IMG/VR virus record: IMGVR_UViG_3300025669_000092 | Location: 1 to 38,515 of that record | Origin: a virus | Direction: 5' to 3' (one strand) | Length of the DNA stretch: 38,515 bases | Part shown: positions 14,905-38,515 of the stretch, piece after piece | Layout of the letters: each line of letters opens with the position of its first letter | Numbering within the stretch: the first letter of the stretch is position 1 | Program-made: the position numbers and the translations under genes | Notes under the pieces: generated by a model | Database searches by the model: none | Told to the model about the DNA's origin: nothing | Seen by the model: the letters and a program-made list of their open reading frames with translations, nothing else

Positions 14905-16152
14905 TTAACCTATGTAATATCTCTTTTGAGAATTATAATCTCTTACAACTTCTTCTAAGGACAATGCTTTCTTATAAAACTTAACTCTACCAACATTCCC
15001 TTTAAAGAAGTTTCTATTAGCTGCATCATGTCTTGCTCCAGAGTTTATACCTCTAGGACCAGACATAGCCTCACCAGTTCCAGTGTCATCTAGTACTCCA
15101 TTTATGTATAATTTACCTGTAGTCCCTTCTGAAGTACCTACTAAGTGATACCATCTACCTAAAGTTGGTACGACTCCACTACCTATTGCTTGCCAAGCAG
15201 CAGAAGCCCATACTCCAAATGTAAGTGCGTTATCAGTACCTATTGGATTTTGTACTCCAGTTCCCAATGTTGCTCTATCACCACCACCTACTGTGCCTAA
15301 TGACATAGCTGACTGTAGTGTTGCTTCTGTGAACTTACACCAGCAAGAAAGTGAATATGCAATTTCTTCATAACTATCTGTAGACTGAACAAAAGCTGTA
15401 GTACCATTATAAAGACCAGTATATAACCCGCCTTCAATAGCTACTACTGCATCAGTGTTAGTAAGTGTAGCTCCAAACCTATCATATATAGTCCCAAGTC
15501 TAGGGTCTATGTCCAATAAAAGATAATTCATATCTGGTTCTATAAATAAGTTGTTATTAGCTAATGCACTTGCTTCTTCTGCTGTAATAGCCCAATCTCT
15601 AATCTCTATCATATCTAAGTCATTTTCTAATACAGCAGTACCGTCAGCTTTAGCGCCAATTTGTAATGCTGTTTCTTCTATATCTACTCCTGCTCCAAAC
15701 GAGAAGTCAGTGCTAGATACCAACACACCATCTGCATACATAGCAAAACTAGCAAGTCCTGCTCCTATTACAATCGTAAGGTGGTTACAGCCATGAGCTG
15801 CGGAATATGTAAAAGTCCTACCCTTGTAGTTTCCTACACTTGATGTTGCTATAACAAAGAAATTAGTTCCAGACCTATAGAACGATAGAGAACTACTAGC
15901 AGCATCACCATGAGAAAGTAAATATCCACCTGAAAACTCTAGGTTTAATCCATCATCTATCTTAAATGAATAGCTTATACCACCAGAAGTTCTCATCCTT
16001 TTAGTATATACTGCTTTACCTGTATCAAACTTAGCCAAGCCATCAGTTATAGTAACACCAGTTAGAACACCACCATTACTGGTGACTTCTGCTGTTGAGT
16101 TGAATGTCTCTCTCCAAACTCTGTTATCTATGTGTACTATACTTTCTTTCAT
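14905..16152 (-). CDS. Double-LamG-like receptor-binding protein (415 aa)
   Basis: Two jelly-roll lectin modules are apparent. The first (about residues 10-195) has LNLEFSGGYLLSHGDAA, HLTIVIGAGLASFAMYADG and LDMIEIRDWAITAEEASAL. The second (about 220-410) has YNGTTAFVQSTD, YSLSCWCKFTEATLQSAMS, GRWYHLVGTSEGTTGKLYIN and GNVGRVKFYKKALSLEEVV. 'RWYHLVGT...LYINGV' and the final 'x-x-F-Y-K-K-A-L-S' are standard LamG_3 landmarks. It most likely binds a surface polysaccharide. It is the next gene downstream of the beta-helix spike gene. Confidence 0.8.
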   Translation of the reverse strand: MKESIVHIDNRVWRETFNSTAEVTSNGGVLTGVTITDGLAKFDTGKAVYTKRMRTSGGISYSFKIDDGLNLEFSGGYLLSHGDAASSSLSFYRSGTNFFVIATSSVGNYKGRTFTYSAAHGCNHLTIVIGAGLASFAMYADGVLVSSTDFSFGAGVDIEETALQIGAKADGTAVLENDLDMIEIRDWAITAEEASALANNNLFIEPDMNYLLLDIDPRLGTIYDRFGATLTNTDAVVAIEGGLYTGLYNGTTAFVQSTDSYEEIAYSLSCWCKFTEATLQSAMSLGTVGGGDRATLGTGVQNPIGTDNALTFGVWASAAWQAIGSGVVPTLGRWYHLVGTSEGTTGKLYINGVLDDTGTGEAMSGPRGINSGARHDAANRNFFKGNVGRVKFYKKALSLEEVVRDYNSQKRYYIG

Positions 16153-16160
16153 CTTTTCCC

Positions 16161-17639
16161 CTAGTCTTGGTATATTGCTGTAATATCATACCCTGTACCG
16201 TTATTTCCATCTGTACCGTTTTGCGCTCTTACTATTACCCCGTCATTTCTCTGCATACCTCTTGCTTTGTGCCAGACAAATCTTGTAAAATCCTTAGCTG
16301 AACCAGCAGAGAAATCAAAACAACCATGATGGTATTTTTCATCATCTCTACTACAAAGATACATAACTTCGTTACCTGCATCATTAGTTGTGTGGTTCCA
16401 CCTTAAACCAGTATTAGGTGCGCCAAATTGAGAAGCCTCTCTTGCTATAGTTATTACAGCACCAGTTACATCTGTTACTTTTACAATCTCTCCATTTGGT
16501 TTATAACCTGGACTTGCTATCCACACTTTATCATTAACTGCAAACAAAGCTGCCTCTGTAGCATCAGTTACCGTTAATACTGTAGCACCCTCGTCCCAAG
16601 CGTTGCCTGCATTTCTTGTTGCGGTCTTAGATGCAACTAGCCTTAAATAACAAGACCTTATCTCTTTATTAGTTGTACTTGCATATACATTTATACCTAT
16701 AAAGTCCCATCTATCTGTAAATGTAGCTACTGGAACTAAAACTAAAGGCTCGCCCCAATAGTTAGCTGTAGTTTCAGCACCGTTTGTTTCGTCACTTGCA
16801 TCTGAAGTTACAGATATTGCGTCACCTGCTGTACCCTCGCCATCTGGCGTTGGGTATATTTCTCCGTGTTGTTCTCTCCTTAATGTATCATGAAAATTAG
16901 CCCACATATTGTTTTCGCCATCATCTACTCTAGTTCCATCTCCACTACCTGAAGAACAATCTATAATAGTCCAGCCTGATGAACCTGCCCCTGCATAAAA
17001 ACCAGCAGTACCATGACCTGCTGAAGTGCAATTTCTTAATATTCCTGCTGATACTGCACCAATTTTAAAACCATACGTTGCGGTTCCTACTCCAACAGTA
17101 CCACATTCAAAATATCTACCTTGAACGCCCATTATGTCCCATGAAATATCAGTTTGTAGTCCTGCTACATAATTAGAAAAAGTAGTACCTAGACCTGTTA
17201 CACTTACACCAGTTGCTCCACCTGCTATTTTACCATCTGATATTTTAGCCTCAATACCACTAATAATCATACCAGTAGATAATGCTACTGGTTCTATCTT
17301 ATGTGGTCCTTTAATGCTACAATAATCACCACTAATCGTAAGAGACGTTGTTAAAGCACTACCTGTTGCTGGTATAATTATTACACCTGTTTCAAATGTA
17401 ACCTCAACTGAGTCAGCAGTTAAATCAAGGTCTATTTCAGTGTATGTAGCAGCTCTAACTGTTATTGCATCACCATCGCTTACCGCCAGGAACGCTGCTC
17501 CTATAGTTAGAAAAGCATTATCAGGACTTCCGCCAGTGTTTGTGTCAAGACCATTAACACCATCTACAAAATACTGTTCACCACCATAAGCTGGTACATG
17601 AAACAAGTAGGCATCAGTCTGTTGTCTTAGCTCTCTCAA
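16161..17639 (-). CDS. Right-handed beta-helix tail spike-like protein (492 aa, TTG start)
   Basis: Residues about 20-240 read as a parallel beta-helix: the opening EQYFVDGVNGLDTNTGG followed by AFLTIGAAFLAVSDGDAITV is the typical entry of phage pectate-lyase-like spikes, and later coils show short strand/turn repeats (ISGDYCSIKG, GFYAGAGSSGWTIIDCSSGS). The C-terminal third is a separate beta domain. Spikes of this type bind or degrade host polysaccharide. The start codon TTG (17639-17637) follows the upstream TAA without a gap, with GGAG 7 nt upstream. Catalytic residues cannot be assigned. Confidence 0.75.
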   Translation of the reverse strand: MRELRQQTDAYLFHVPAYGGEQYFVDGVNGLDTNTGGSPDNAFLTIGAAFLAVSDGDAITVRAATYTEIDLDLTADSVEVTFETGVIIIPATGSALTTSLTISGDYCSIKGPHKIEPVALSTGMIISGIEAKISDGKIAGGATGVSVTGLGTTFSNYVAGLQTDISWDIMGVQGRYFECGTVGVGTATYGFKIGAVSAGILRNCTSAGHGTAGFYAGAGSSGWTIIDCSSGSGDGTRVDDGENNMWANFHDTLRREQHGEIYPTPDGEGTAGDAISVTSDASDETNGAETTANYWGEPLVLVPVATFTDRWDFIGINVYASTTNKEIRSCYLRLVASKTATRNAGNAWDEGATVLTVTDATEAALFAVNDKVWIASPGYKPNGEIVKVTDVTGAVITIAREASQFGAPNTGLRWNHTTNDAGNEVMYLCSRDDEKYHHGCFDFSAGSAKDFTRFVWHKARGMQRNDGVIVRAQNGTDGNNGTGYDITAIYQD

Positions 17640-28922: not shown

Positions 28923-29177
28923 ATGAACAAAAAAGAATTAAGAATTGCAAGGCATTTTGGCATCAAGTTTTGTAGGTTATTAAGAGAATTATCTCCTCAT
29001 AGCTTTAAAATTAACGGCTGTCCTAGGAGTACAAAAAGGGCTGTCCTTGAGCTTAGTAGATTATCACTGTTAAAAAAGGCTGGCTATGAAACTTATTGCA
29101 GGGCTGTCAATCGCTTGACGTGGCAAGAAATAAAAAGCGATGTAGTTTTGTCTAATTTGTGGACTAAGAGTTTATAA
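28923..29177 (+). CDS. Basic early protein, hypothetical (84 aa)
   Basis: ATG at 28923 follows AAAAAGGGGGCTAAT. The product is basic and helical (KKELRIARHFGIKFCRLL, RAVLELSRLSLLKKAGY, ending SNLWTKSL) and could bind nucleic acid, but has no recognised motif. A hairpin TGCCGT (28882-28887) / ACGGCA (28900-28905) lies just before its ribosome binding site. It is followed 37 nt later by the gene broken by the insertion element. Confidence 0.65.
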   Translation: MNKKELRIARHFGIKFCRLLRELSPHSFKINGCPRSTKRAVLELSRLSLLKKAGYETYCRAVNRLTWQEIKSDVVLSNLWTKSL

Positions 29178-29357
29178 AGCCAATGCAAGGCTATAAAATG
29201 CAAAGGGGGCTAATATGATTACAAAGGCAATATTTAAAGCTGGTAAAGATAAAAAAGGTCAATGGCGTATGTTTGTTCGACAAGGTGATAAAGGTCATTA
29301 TATAGTTGGTTCCTTGTCCAGACAAATTTTTCATTGTGTTAAGGTGTAAAACCTCCT

Positions 29358-30203
29358 TCATGCTACCATTACCTTTTCTTCTTCTTTATTTTTACATTCA
29401 AAGTATTTCTCATCCGGAGTCTTGTACTTCAGAGACTGATGTGACCTCTCGTTGTTGTAGAAATAGAAATATCTGTTTATCCCAGCTCTGAGCATTGGAA
29501 GTGTTTGATAATCGTTGAGATAAATATCCTCGTATTTTACAGTTCTCCACAGTCTCTCTATATAGATGTTATCGTAGACCCTGCCTGTGCCGTCCATGCT
29601 GAGCTTTATATTACGAGACAAGACATAGGACGTAAAATCATTTGATGTAAACTGACTGCCCTGATCTGTGTTCAGTATGTAGGGTATTCCGTACTTCTTT
29701 ATCGCTGCGCCTACGACTCTATGACAGAAAAAAGAGTCCATCGTGTTTGATACTTCCCATGACAATACCTTTCTGCTGTAAAGATCCAACATCGCCATCA
29801 AATAAACATGACCTCCAGGAATCTTTAAATACGTAATATCCGTTGCCCAAACGTGATTAGGGTATGATGCTGTAATACCACTGAGCAAGTATGGGTACTT
29901 CTTATGCGCCTTATTCGGGCTACTTAAATATGGTTTTGGGAAAAGTGCCGCTATATTTAATTTCTTCATAAGACGACGTACTCGACCCTCACCAAGTTCA
30001 TAGCCTTTTTTTGTTAATGCATCTGCAAGTTTTATGCGACCGTAAAATGGTGTCTTGCTATGTTGCAAAAGAACAAGGCTACCGTCTATCTTGTCCTGCT
30101 CTGCTCGCAAAGTTCTAGGCACATGATAGTAATGATGACGACCAATGTTCAACAGCTCACACTGCCTTTTTATCGTTATCTCTTTATGTTTAGGCTCTAA
30201 CAT
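29358..30203 (-). CDS. IS3-family transposase OrfB, DDE integrase domain (281 aa)
   Basis: The catalytic triad is complete: D122 (WATDITYL), D180 (NTDQGSQF) and E216 (YIERLWR), giving the D-35-E spacing of retroviral-type integrases. The N-terminal part has the HTH_21-like region (KEITIKRQCELLNIGRHHYY) and the C-terminus the usual YNNERSHQSL. Functional transposase is made as an OrfAB fusion by -1 frameshifting near 30243-30251; the frame of orfB is open from there. ATG 30203 is the first in-frame start. Confidence 0.92.
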   Translation of the reverse strand: MLEPKHKEITIKRQCELLNIGRHHYYHVPRTLRAEQDKIDGSLVLLQHSKTPFYGRIKLADALTKKGYELGEGRVRRLMKKLNIAALFPKPYLSSPNKAHKKYPYLLSGITASYPNHVWATDITYLKIPGGHVYLMAMLDLYSRKVLSWEVSNTMDSFFCHRVVGAAIKKYGIPYILNTDQGSQFTSNDFTSYVLSRNIKLSMDGTGRVYDNIYIERLWRTVKYEDIYLNDYQTLPMLRAGINRYFYFYNNERSHQSLKYKTPDEKYFECKNKEEEKVMVA

Positions 30204-30217
30204 CTTTACTCTTTCCC

Positions 30218-30505
30218 TTACTTCCCGAATATCTGTCGGCTCTTTTTTTTTAGAAACTCATTCTCTATTTTAAGTTTGCCAACTTCCTTATAAAGCACTT
30301 CCTCTAGTTTTGATGCATCTTTCTCTTCTTGACTCTTACCTCGCTGAAATGCTTCTGCCGCAAATTCTATCAAATGCTTTTTCCACTCGCTCACCATGTT
30401 AGAATGTACCTCGTAAATTGCTCCAATCTCGGCAGCTGTCTTTTCTTCCTTCAATGCTTCCAACGCTACTTGAGCCTTAAATTCTTTACTGTGCTTTTTT
30501 CTCAT
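30218..30505 (-). CDS. IS3-family transposase OrfA (95 aa)
   Basis: Residues about 5-50 form the helix-turn-helix that binds the element ends (HSKEFKAQVALEALKEEKTA, then EIGAIYEVHSNMVSEWKK). A leucine-zipper-like region follows (KLEEVLYKEVGKLKIENEFL). It ends KKKSRQIFGK just after the slippery A-tract. AGGAGG precedes its ATG at 30505. OrfA alone usually acts as an inhibitor, and OrfAB is the active enzyme. Confidence 0.9.
   Translation of the reverse strand: MRKKHSKEFKAQVALEALKEEKTAAEIGAIYEVHSNMVSEWKKHLIEFAAEAFQRGKSQEEKDASKLEEVLYKEVGKLKIENEFLKKKSRQIFGK
30239..30251 (-). other. Probable -1 ribosomal frameshift site in the transposase
   Basis: On the minus strand a run of nine A is followed by GAGCC (CTAAAAAAAAAGAGCC). 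A -1 slip on A-AAA-AAG takes ribosomes from FLKKK in orfA to EPTDIREVRERVKMLEPKHK in the orfB frame with no intervening stop, as in other IS3 elements. Confidence 0.75.
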
Positions 30506-30737: not shown

Positions 30738-31070
30738 ATGAAAGTATTAAGAAAAATAAGTAAAAAGGGATTGAGTGAAGTTATCAAAGGGGGCTTTGAC
30801 TTGTTTATGATAAACAATGCCCTATATCAAATTGATGAGTACGACATGGCGGGTAAAAACCTGTCCATTGTGTCGCTTGATAAAGGCATAAGGGTCTTTA
30901 TATCAACAAATAATAGGTATAAAAGCCTTAAAGACTTAGATTTTGAGATTTGCAAGCTCGATTATATCAGGAATGACATACAGTATTATTATAGTCAAAA
31001 CCAAGCTATCAATTTTATGAAACGATTTGATAAAAGGGTAACAAATTATTCAAAGTACGATACTAAATAA
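30738..31070 (+). CDS. Early hypothetical protein (110 aa)
   Basis: ATG at 30738 follows AAAAAGGGGGCAATT, the early-gene leader; an earlier in-frame start at 30657 lies in the 3' remnant of the broken gene. The protein is basic, mixed alpha/beta (LRKISKKGLSEVIKGGFDLF, DMAGKNLSIVSLDKGIRVFI, YYYSQNQAINFMKRFDKRV). No known domain. Because it lies downstream of the insertion in the same operon, its expression may be lowered by polarity. Confidence 0.65.
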   Translation: MKVLRKISKKGLSEVIKGGFDLFMINNALYQIDEYDMAGKNLSIVSLDKGIRVFISTNNRYKSLKDLDFEICKLDYIRNDIQYYYSQNQAINFMKRFDKRVTNYSKYDTK

Positions 31071-31106
31071 AGCTATGCCAAGCTATAAATGGCAAGGGGT
31101 TAAATT

Positions 31107-31526
31107 ATGAATAGAAAAGAACTAAAAGAACTAAAAGATTTTGGCTTTGAAAAAGACGAACTAAAAGAAATTTACACAGAAGCACAAGGCAATGACAATT
31201 TTGAGATTGGCAATTACCGCTTTGTCTCTGATGATAGCATAGACAAGACACAGCAAGATGAATTAAAAGATGATTTGTATATGCTAGGTTGTTTTAATGC
31301 TTGGTTTATAGCTGACATTTTAGAAATGGATACAGAGATAATCGAAACGCTACAAAAATCAGAAGCATTTGAAGGTATAGGTAAAATGTTATTGCCCCAT
31401 ATTGACGAACTACAAGACAAATACTCCAGTATGGACGGCTACGGTCATCACTTTGCGTGTTATGACGGTTGTGATAATGAATTTGACCTAAATGGAGAGC
31501 TATATCATTGTTTTAGAACTAATTAG
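31107..31526 (+). CDS. Acidic early hypothetical protein (139 aa)
   Basis: A strongly acidic protein: N-terminal charged helix (ELKELKDFGFEKDELKEIYT), middle helical region with LGCFNAWFIADILEMDTEII, and the C-terminal DGYGHHFACYDGCDNEFDL and LYHCFRTN. The motif YGHHFAxYDG followed by YxxFRxN recurs in small phage proteins of unknown function. Acidic small early proteins sometimes mimic DNA, but nothing here proves it. ATG has AAGGGG upstream, after a TGCCA/TGGCA hairpin (31076-31094). Confidence 0.65.
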   Translation: MNRKELKELKDFGFEKDELKEIYTEAQGNDNFEIGNYRFVSDDSIDKTQQDELKDDLYMLGCFNAWFIADILEMDTEIIETLQKSEAFEGIGKMLLPHIDELQDKYSSMDGYGHHFACYDGCDNEFDLNGELYHCFRTN

Positions 31527-33922: not shown

Positions 33923-33951
33923 TTGACAGTTTTATTTTATTAGGAGATTAT
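33923..33951 (+). promoter_or_regulatory. Promoter for the structured leader and replication genes
   Basis: TTGACA (33923-33928), 17-nt spacer, GATTAT (33946-33951). Transcription should start near 33958, directly at the beginning of the structured RNA described below. Confidence 0.55.
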
Positions 33952-33957
33952 TATTTT

Positions 33958-34080
33958 ATGCTAACGGTAACAAAATGTATTATTATTGGTTATAACGACA
34001 CTGGGATTTCTAATCCGTTAGCAACAGTGTCTTGTAATAGCAGGGTTGGGTTTTATGAGCCTAGCCCTGTTTATATTTTA
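33958..34080 (+). ncRNA. Structured leader or small RNA with predicted pseudoknot and terminator-like hairpin
   Basis: Four pairings are visible: GACACTG (33997-34003) with CAGTGTC (34025-34031); GGATT (34004-34008) with AATCC (34012-34016), stacked directly inside the first; CTAAC near the RNA 5' end (33961-33965) with the bulge GTTAG (34017-34021), a pseudoknot; and a separate 10-bp stem (34041-34050 with 34060-34069, two G-U pairs) followed by TTTATATTTTA. A small 43-codon ORF (33958-34089) also lies here but looks unlike a protein. It could be a cis leader controlling the initiator gene, or a free small RNA ended by the last hairpin. Confidence 0.5.
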
Positions 34081-34094
34081 AAGGAGTGATTGTT

Positions 34095-34862
34095 TTGGAT
34101 AAAGACAAACAGGTTTATTACTGGATTATGCTTAAAGATGACTTCTTTGAAGATGAAGCGATTAAGGTAATTGAAAGTATGGACAATGGCAAAGACTATG
34201 TTTTATTTCTGCTAAAGCTCTATATCAAATCTGCTAAAAAAGATGGTTATTTAAAACTAACAGAAGCTATCCCTTATAGTCCTAAAACATTAGCAAGTAT
34301 CACCAGCACAAATATAGATATAGTTGATAAAGCTATTAAAATATTCCAAGACTTTAATCTTCTAAGTGTTTGTGATGATGGAACTATTTACTTAAACAGG
34401 ATTAAGGAAATGGTTGGTAGCGAAACTCATTCTTCAGTTAGAAAAAGAATATATAGAGAGAAACAAACGGCAATAGAAAACAATAAACAACAAGGTGTTT
34501 TGGGACAAAGTCCCAGTGATGTCCCGCCAATGTCGCACAGAGTTAAGAGTAAAGAGATAAGAGATAAGAATATAATACCAGCAGAACTGGTTAGTAAGTT
34601 TGAACTAATATGGGAGAAATATCCTAAGAAGCTAGGAAAGAAAGCTGCGCTTAAACACTACTCTGCTACTGTTAAAAGTTTAGATGACTTTACCCTAATT
34701 GAAAAAGCATTAGTTAATTACACAGACAGTTTACGCAAAAATGGTACGGAAGATAAATATATCCAGAATGGGTCAACATGGTTTAATAATTGGCATGATT
34801 GGATAACTATAAATAAAAAACAAGAAATTAACGTATGGGGGGGCTTAAAAGATGTGGAATAG
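34095..34862 (+). CDS. Replication initiator, Phage_rep_org_N type (255 aa, TTG start)
   Basis: The N-terminal ~90 residues (YYWIMLKDDFFEDEAIKVIE, YVLFLLKLYIKSAKKDGYLK, ALASITSTN-like) match the phage replisome-organiser N-terminal domain, a winged-helix DNA-binding module. A linker is followed by a C-terminal domain (KFELIWEKYPKKLGKKAALK, ending NGSTWFNNWHDW) common to phage initiators that load the helicase. TTG at 34095 is chosen because AAAGGAG (34080-34086) is 8 nt upstream; in-frame GTG at 34086 overlaps that site. It overlaps the helicase gene by 11 bp. Confidence 0.8.
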   Translation: MDKDKQVYYWIMLKDDFFEDEAIKVIESMDNGKDYVLFLLKLYIKSAKKDGYLKLTEAIPYSPKTLASITSTNIDIVDKAIKIFQDFNLLSVCDDGTIYLNRIKEMVGSETHSSVRKRIYREKQTAIENNKQQGVLGQSPSDVPPMSHRVKSKEIRDKNIIPAELVSKFELIWEKYPKKLGKKAALKHYSATVKSLDDFTLIEKALVNYTDSLRKNGTEDKYIQNGSTWFNNWHDWITINKKQEINVWGGLKDVE

Positions 34863-37836: not shown

Positions 37837-37997
37837 TGGACAGAACTATCTTTACTATGGGAGCATTGATACTGGTGTTATTACTGGTCGTTATCGGTAC
37901 AGGGATAGAGAAGGAAGAACTAAGTAAGGAGTTAAACGCTTACAAGACTATGGTTAAGAGAAGTTGTAACTGCCACCCTTACAGGAGTGCAAAATGA
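37836..37997 (+). CDS. Small membrane protein (53 aa)
   Basis: ATG (37836-37838) overlaps the preceding stop, AGGAGGTGGG is upstream, and the stop overlaps the next ATG (ATGA at 37994-37997). The product has one hydrophobic helix (ALILVLLLVVIGTGI, residues ~10-24) and a charged helical tail with CNC near the end (SCNCHPYRSAK). Unknown function; topology fits an i-spanin-like or regulatory membrane peptide. Confidence 0.6.
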   Translation: MDRTIFTMGALILVLLLVVIGTGIEKEELSKELNAYKTMVKRSCNCHPYRSAK

Positions 37998-38515
37998 AAA
38001 AATATAAAGTATTAAACAAAGACAAGACTAGCCCGTTTCAAAACTTCAAGTATAAGCTAGGCAAAGAATACCATTGTCCAGAGATTGATATGTGTGAAAA
38101 CAATGGTTGTTCTAACGGGCTGTATGCCACTGATTTAGAGGGTATATTGTATTCTAATCTGTCTAGTGGCAAGCAAGTTTATGAGTGTGAGGTGAGGGGT
38201 AAAGAGGTTGTTATAGACCAATTTAAACAGAGATTTGAATACTTAAAATTGATTAGAAAAATCTCGCTAAAAGAATTAGAGCCGTTGCTTAAAAAGGAAA
38301 GCAAGAAACTTGGCTATGATTTAAATAGGGCTTTAGTGCCAGTTAATCCCTTAGCTTCCAAGCCAAGTAAGCCTACGAAAAAAGATATAGCAAACCTTAA
38401 AAAGTGGGACTCTGTGCGGGACTCTGTGTGGGGCTCTGTGCGGGACTCTGTGTGGGGCTCTGTGTGGTACTCTGTGGGGGACTCTGTGGAGAACTCTGTG
38501 CGGGACTCTGTGTGG
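37994..38515 (+). CDS. DUF7666-like protein with C-terminal xDSV tetrapeptide repeats (partial, 174 aa)
   Basis: The N-terminal ~75 residues (KYKVLNKDKTSPFQNFKYKL, then CPEIDMCENNG and YATDL) recall the DUF7666 domain of phage and bacterial proteins. A helical spacer (LKLIRKISLKELEPLLKKES) follows, then from residue ~138 nine tetrapeptides of the form (W/R/G/E)(D/G/Y/N)SV: WDSV, RDSV, WGSV, RDSV, WGSV, WYSV, GDSV, ENSV, RDSV, ending in W at the edge. Regular 4-residue periodicity suggests a solenoid. It is truncated by the window; if the contig is circular it continues at position 1. Confidence 0.7.
   Translation, partial: MKKYKVLNKDKTSPFQNFKYKLGKEYHCPEIDMCENNGCSNGLYATDLEGILYSNLSSGKQVYECEVRGKEVVIDQFKQRFEYLKLIRKISLKELEPLLKKESKKLGYDLNRALVPVNPLASKPSKPTKKDIANLKKWDSVRDSVWGSVRDSVWGSVWYSVGDSVENSVRDSVW
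38405..38515 (+). repeat. 12-nt tandem repeat encoding xDSV
   Basis: About nine copies of a 12-nt unit close to TGGGACTCTGTG run to the window edge, varying mainly in the first two codons (TGG, CGG, GGG, GAG; GAC, GGC, TAC, AAC) while TCTGTG is constant. The unit keeps the reading frame, so copy number can change without frameshift. Repeats are far richer in G than the rest of the genome. Confidence 0.9.

Follow-up and report, generated by a model that had tools for sequence, protein, structure and literature searches.

A previously undescribed pseudoknotted RNA, possibly an attenuating leader, at the head of a phage replication module

The DNA analysed here (the window) is 38,515 nt long and comprises positions 1-38,515 of the virus record IMGVR_UViG_3300025669_000092, a phage with few relatives from an environmental metagenome. 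A structured RNA of about 120 nt (33958-34078) is predicted between a hypothetical 135-aa gene and the gene of a phage replisome organiser, which has a TTG start (34095-34862; PF09681 Phage_rep_org_N, E 7e-26) and is followed by a DnaB-like helicase gene. All features of this locus given below are on the plus strand. Protein and DNA-pattern scans of viral contigs yielded, among the matches listed, only L118, L139 and the near-identical L110 as homologues. The DNA-pattern scan supplied L118, a 41.4-kb contig, and a protein-alignment search supplied L139, a 22.4-kb contig; L110/L002 is essentially the window's own phage and does not count as independent. The order in L118 is a small repeat-rich protein, the RNA, a hypothetical 118-aa gene, a weak primosomal-protein match and a DnaB-like helicase that is homologous to that of the window, the two helicase genes differing by 27% of bases. 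In L139, the RNA stands immediately before a DUF6291/Phg_2220_C protein. The replication genes beside the RNA are non-orthologous across the three phages; the RNA and its position are retained. Two other features of these genomes were recorded. A strong promoter-like site at 1644-1672 of L118 (TAGACA-N17-TATAAT, 11/12, with TG before the -10) precedes the repeat-rich protein upstream of the RNA. At 37994-38515 of the window lies a gene whose N-terminal part is conserved and whose tail consists of tandem DSV/GSV-type repeats; its DNA is 86-88% identical in the L118 and L139 phages, with little else alike.

The segment 33961-34080 on the plus strand gave a fold z of -5.75 against dinucleotide shuffles and ranked first among 1280 segments of 120 nt taken from both strands. 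The minus strand at the same place gave z = -1.96, so the extreme fold is strand-specific. A preliminary description of this DNA had proposed a compact pseudoknotted RNA followed by a terminator-like hairpin; the stretch 33955-34090 gave z = -3.58, and all the proposed elements were present in the sequence.

A promoter-like site, TTGACA (33923-33928)-N17-GATTAT (33946-33951), lies upstream. It was described earlier as the promoter and is indeed the best local match, at 10/12 of the consensus, although such matches are no commoner than in shuffles. All three sequences have a TTGAC(A/T) motif ahead of the 5' arm of the pseudoknot, at a distance of 36 nt in the window and in L118 and of 37 nt in L139; a consensus-like -10 follows in the window only, the -10s of L118 and L139 being poor. 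Because the -10 is consensus-like in the window alone, we consider a promoter upstream of the RNA to be plausible only. From the position of this site, transcription would probably start near A33958. No antisense promoter-like site was found on the minus strand within the RNA.

The central stem of the model, P1, has 14 bp and one bulged C (C33996): its 5' arm, GTTATAA-C-GACACTG (33989-34003), pairs through 33989-33995 and 33997-34003 with the 3' arm CAGTGTCTTGTAAT (34025-34038). The 5' end of the RNA is paired with the 3' part of the P1 loop in an H-type pseudoknot, S1, whose 5' arm TGCTAACGG (33959-33967) and 3' arm CCGTTAGCA (34015-34023) form a 9-nt perfect inverted repeat. None of 2000 shuffles reached the duplex energy of S1. 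The 5' end had been described before as pairing with five bases in a bulge of the hairpin; the pairing exists, but over 9 perfect bp. A coaxial hairpin of 12 bp had also been put forward. Its stem is there, in a P1 longer than that description allowed, but its P2 part (GGATT-TCT-AATCC, 5 bp, 34004-34008/34012-34016) is not conserved in L139. P2 belongs to the minimum-energy fold and has its CC in common with S1; it may be optional or not real. Between the S1 5' arm and P1, an AU-rich linker, L1 (33968-33988), is single-stranded in the model. Its sequence is conserved, with one change in L118 and AAAxTGT.TTATT.T.GG retained in L139.

To ask how the fold fares in the homologues, the three sequences were aligned. 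L118 is 96% identical to the window over 121 nt, with five changes; three of the four that fall in or adjacent to stems preserve pairing, and the fourth is on an outer G-U pair at the foot of the second hairpin. L139 is 75% identical over 109 nt. Over the 27 pairs of P1 and the second hairpin, 98.8% of cells in the three-way alignment were paired, compared to 34-49% when the partners were slid, and six pairs were changed on both sides. The covariation score was 0.370, compared to 0.212 in shuffles and at most 0.148 with the partners slid. In P1, 100% of cells were paired, and L139 keeps all 14 pairs via four two-sided changes (in part, GGCGGUG/CAUCGCC in L139 against GACACUG/CAGUGUC in the window). 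Because the pseudoknot arms of L139 escape the aligner, S1 was assessed in that phage from its duplex energy and not from counts over alignment columns. There S1 consists of GGCA-AA-GGGGAG with CUCUCC-G-UGCC, arms that are wholly different from those of the window and still complementary. Its energy was reached by 2 of 2000 shuffles, and crossing the arms between the window and L139 lost most of the pairing energy. Compensating changes are thus present for P1, for the pseudoknot and for the second hairpin. As only three distinct sequences are available and two of these are closely similar, the covariation support comes mainly from L139, and this small sample is the one point in favour of a chance folding of coding or intergenic sequence; that reading is highly improbable, contradicted as it is by the compensatory changes in all three helices and by the extreme fold energy. 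Since two related phages hold the same fold with different letters, we take this previously undescribed phage RNA, as judged from its sequence, to be real.

The second hairpin (34041-34069) is terminator-like and is present in all three phages. It has a stem of 13 bp, or 15 bp with flanking pairs (34039-34071), where 10 bp had been described, and one of its pairs covaries as G-U/A-U/G-C. The T-rich tail expected after it is there as well: TTTATATTT (34070-34078), identical in all three homologues. This U-tract is the end of the conserved block, and the homology of the window to L118 stops at 34078. The ribosome-binding site of the initiator gene, AAGGAG (34080-34086), follows. In each of the three phages, 0-3 nt separate the U-tract from the downstream Shine-Dalgarno sequence (SD), and in L118 and L139 the two touch. 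The anatomy of an attenuator leader was thus found, with promoter-like site, leader, terminator-like hairpin plus U-tract and gene start, the promoter being at consensus in the window only. A clear antiterminator was not found: the L2/S1 region pairs weakly with the 5' arm of the second hairpin, near chance, with 4%, 4% and 22% of shuffles giving a candidate pairing as good.

A 43-codon ORF with its ATG at 33958 (33958-34089), which the preliminary description had missed, overlaps the RNA. A small protein of 43 aa, translationally coupled to the initiator, could be the conserved product, with the RNA fold incidental or autoregulatory. The ORF is open in the window and in L118, a 37-codon ORF is found in L139, the stop falls in or at the next start region, and an SD-like AGGAG (33942-33946) precedes the ATG. 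That AGGAG is, however, upstream of the presumed transcription start. The codon score was ambiguous, below 96% of real gene segments and above 83% of out-of-frame segments, and a family search gave no match. Of the changes between the window and L118 in the conserved part of the ORF, four are nonsynonymous and one is synonymous, while their helicase genes differ by 27%. The L139 ORF starts elsewhere, and its frame is shifted midway by an insertion of 2 nt and, further on, a deletion of 2 nt. Given the mostly nonsynonymous changes in L118, the frame shifts in L139 and the ambiguous codon scores, coding selection does not appear to be supported; we judge the ORF not conserved as a protein, and the coupled-protein reading to be quite improbable.

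We then compared the RNA with described systems. A search of Rfam 15 at the gathering cut-off gave no match in the whole window, and relaxed searches of stretches of the window and L118 gave chance-level matches only, which agrees with the earlier statement that no described RNA family comes to mind. By eye, CTAATCCGTTAGCAAC resembles a portion of the Cas9 tracrRNA; this likeness was rejected, since no Rfam tracrRNA match was obtained even at a relaxed threshold and the segment is not conserved in L139. In pT181 and in pIP501 repR (antisense RNAIII), a structured leader carries an intrinsic terminator just before the replication-initiator gene. The phage locus is similar in having a structured leader and a terminator-like hairpin before a replication initiator, and differs in having a pseudoknot and no antisense promoter-like site opposite the leader. 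In IncI-type repY/repZ, the leader before the replication initiator forms a pseudoknot and is overlapped by a short ORF; that pseudoknot pairs beside the initiator SD and depends on an antisense RNA and on translation of the leader peptide. The phage RNA shares the pseudoknot in an initiator leader and the overlapping short ORF, but its pairing involves the 5' end of the RNA itself, a long way from the SD, and its ORF is not conserved. These plasmid replication leaders (pT181, pIP501 and IncI repZ) are the nearest known functional analogues.

Pseudoknots are also found in the type III antitoxin RNA ToxI, a tandem array of 36-nt pseudoknot units before a toxin gene, of which phages can carry mimics (PMC3475682). 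ToxI and pseudo-ToxI have the same order of pseudoknot RNA, stem-loop terminator and gene (PMC3475682). In contrast, the RNA described here is one pseudoknot of ~80 nt with replication genes downstream, and a ToxI-like antitoxin was rejected: tandem ~36-nt pseudoknot repeats are missing, a ToxN-family endoribonuclease gene is absent downstream, and no toxin match was obtained with PADLOC, Pfam or PHROG. An HDV-like ribozyme was rejected as well. In HDV-like (delta/theta) ribozymes, the catalytic cytosine is at the first position of junction J4/2 (PMC10879173). Such ribozymes form a nested double pseudoknot with P1, P2 and P3. In the window and L118, the strand order S1-P1-P2 matches that of P4-less HDV-like ribozymes; a P3-like hairpin is missing in L139. 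The catalytic cytosine is missing in the phage RNA, the junction before the last strand being A/AA (window, L118) or AAA (L139), and the phage RNA is without a tRNA, unlike the HDV-like/theta ribozymes of phages.

Further members were sought more widely. A covariance model found one copy of the RNA per phage in the three phage records, which may be fragments. Searches with blastn in the GenBank phage and PLSDB plasmid collections gave no homologue, and genome contigs gave chance matches only. With the same model, no match was obtained in 7 single genomes or in two sets of ~400 genomes from the phyla of a Peptococcaceae and a Bacteroidales genome, which may not be the phyla of the host.

A second, different repeated element was seen in these phages, a mini H-type pseudoknot touching the SD. 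In the window, it lies at 31070-31099 (before the ATG at 31107) and at 29176-29209 (before the ATG at ~29215), and in the L139 phage (G005, L197) at ~15781-15810 and ~16208-16236. Its sequence is AGCU-A-UGCCA-AGCU-AUAAA-UGGCA-AGGGG; other copies have AGCC..GGCU with UGCA..UGCA, and the arms co-change between copies. The element resembles a translational operator or a small riboswitch common to several genes. Just downstream of the 29176-29209 copy is an IS3-family insertion element (window 29358-30505), whose transposase is nearest to ISVpa4 at 49% identity; it may interrupt the gene that formerly followed the mini-pseudoknot.

For the ~120-nt RNA, we put a cis-acting leader first, because an attenuator leader has this same order of promoter-like site, pseudoknot, terminator-like hairpin, U-tract, SD and replication gene. 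According to this proposal, which we hold tentatively and at a little less than an even chance, the RNA would represent a small, new family of phage leaders that combine a pseudoknot with a terminator, and would attenuate the replication operon in cis. Transcription would start at 33958; as the RNA emerges, P1 would fold and the 5' end would close onto the loop, giving the H-type pseudoknot S1. Next, immediately ahead of the first replication gene's ribosome-binding site, a strong hairpin with a U-rich tail would form. Most transcripts would end at 34072-34078, freeing a pseudoknotted RNA of ~120 nt, while a controlled fraction would read through into the replication operon. The pseudoknot, or its binding partner, would set the level of replication-gene expression. 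Promoter use, termination and the control of readthrough are here what we infer. Control of replication, the role suggested in the preliminary description, is also the one that we consider most likely; what supports it is position only, the RNA standing at the front of the replication module in the three phages.

The conserved boundaries, exactly at the presumed start and at the U-tract, fit a free small RNA equally well and count against a cis leader. So does the non-orthology of the downstream genes, which leaves no common regulated protein to account for the conservation, and so do the lack of a clear antiterminator and the poor -10s of L118 and L139. The main rival is a free phage small RNA that has a promoter and a terminator of its own and acts in trans, as a host-factor or antitoxin mimic or as a base-pairing regulator; it would have inherited its place without function there. 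We rank it a close second, because conservation ends at the U-tract, the antiterminator is unconvincing and the sequence of the second hairpin and linker is conserved to a degree that a terminator would not require; that the neighbours change and the RNA stays, and that the terminator is strong, also suit it. A conserved target was not found, however: the sites in the phage genomes that best complement the linker differ from phage to phage and are scattered. In addition, none of the three phages has the RNA anywhere but at the front of the replication module. This reading is a possible one, clearly short of an even chance. Position bears on a further explanation, namely that the RNA is part of the replication origin. 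In some replicons, terminated RNAs near origins act as primer or R-loop RNA, and the RNA here is structured, presumably terminated and adjoins the replication module. Non-orthologous initiators make a single origin-recognition partner unlikely, though, and iteron-like repeats around the RNA were not found, which leaves an origin RNA very doubtful.

Control of replication genes by structured RNA is classic in plasmids and, to our knowledge, little described in phages. It is conceivable, though again less probable than an even chance, that the RNA belongs to a new class of pseudoknot RNA in phages which, by sensing a ligand, a protein or the state of RNA polymerase, gates the expression of the adjoining replication module or is released to act in trans, and which is kept while initiators are swapped. 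Together, these results describe a covariation-supported pseudoknot RNA that persists at the head of the replication module while unrelated initiator genes replace one another, and they provide a defined sequence with testable arms for asking whether phages time their replication by RNA attenuation.
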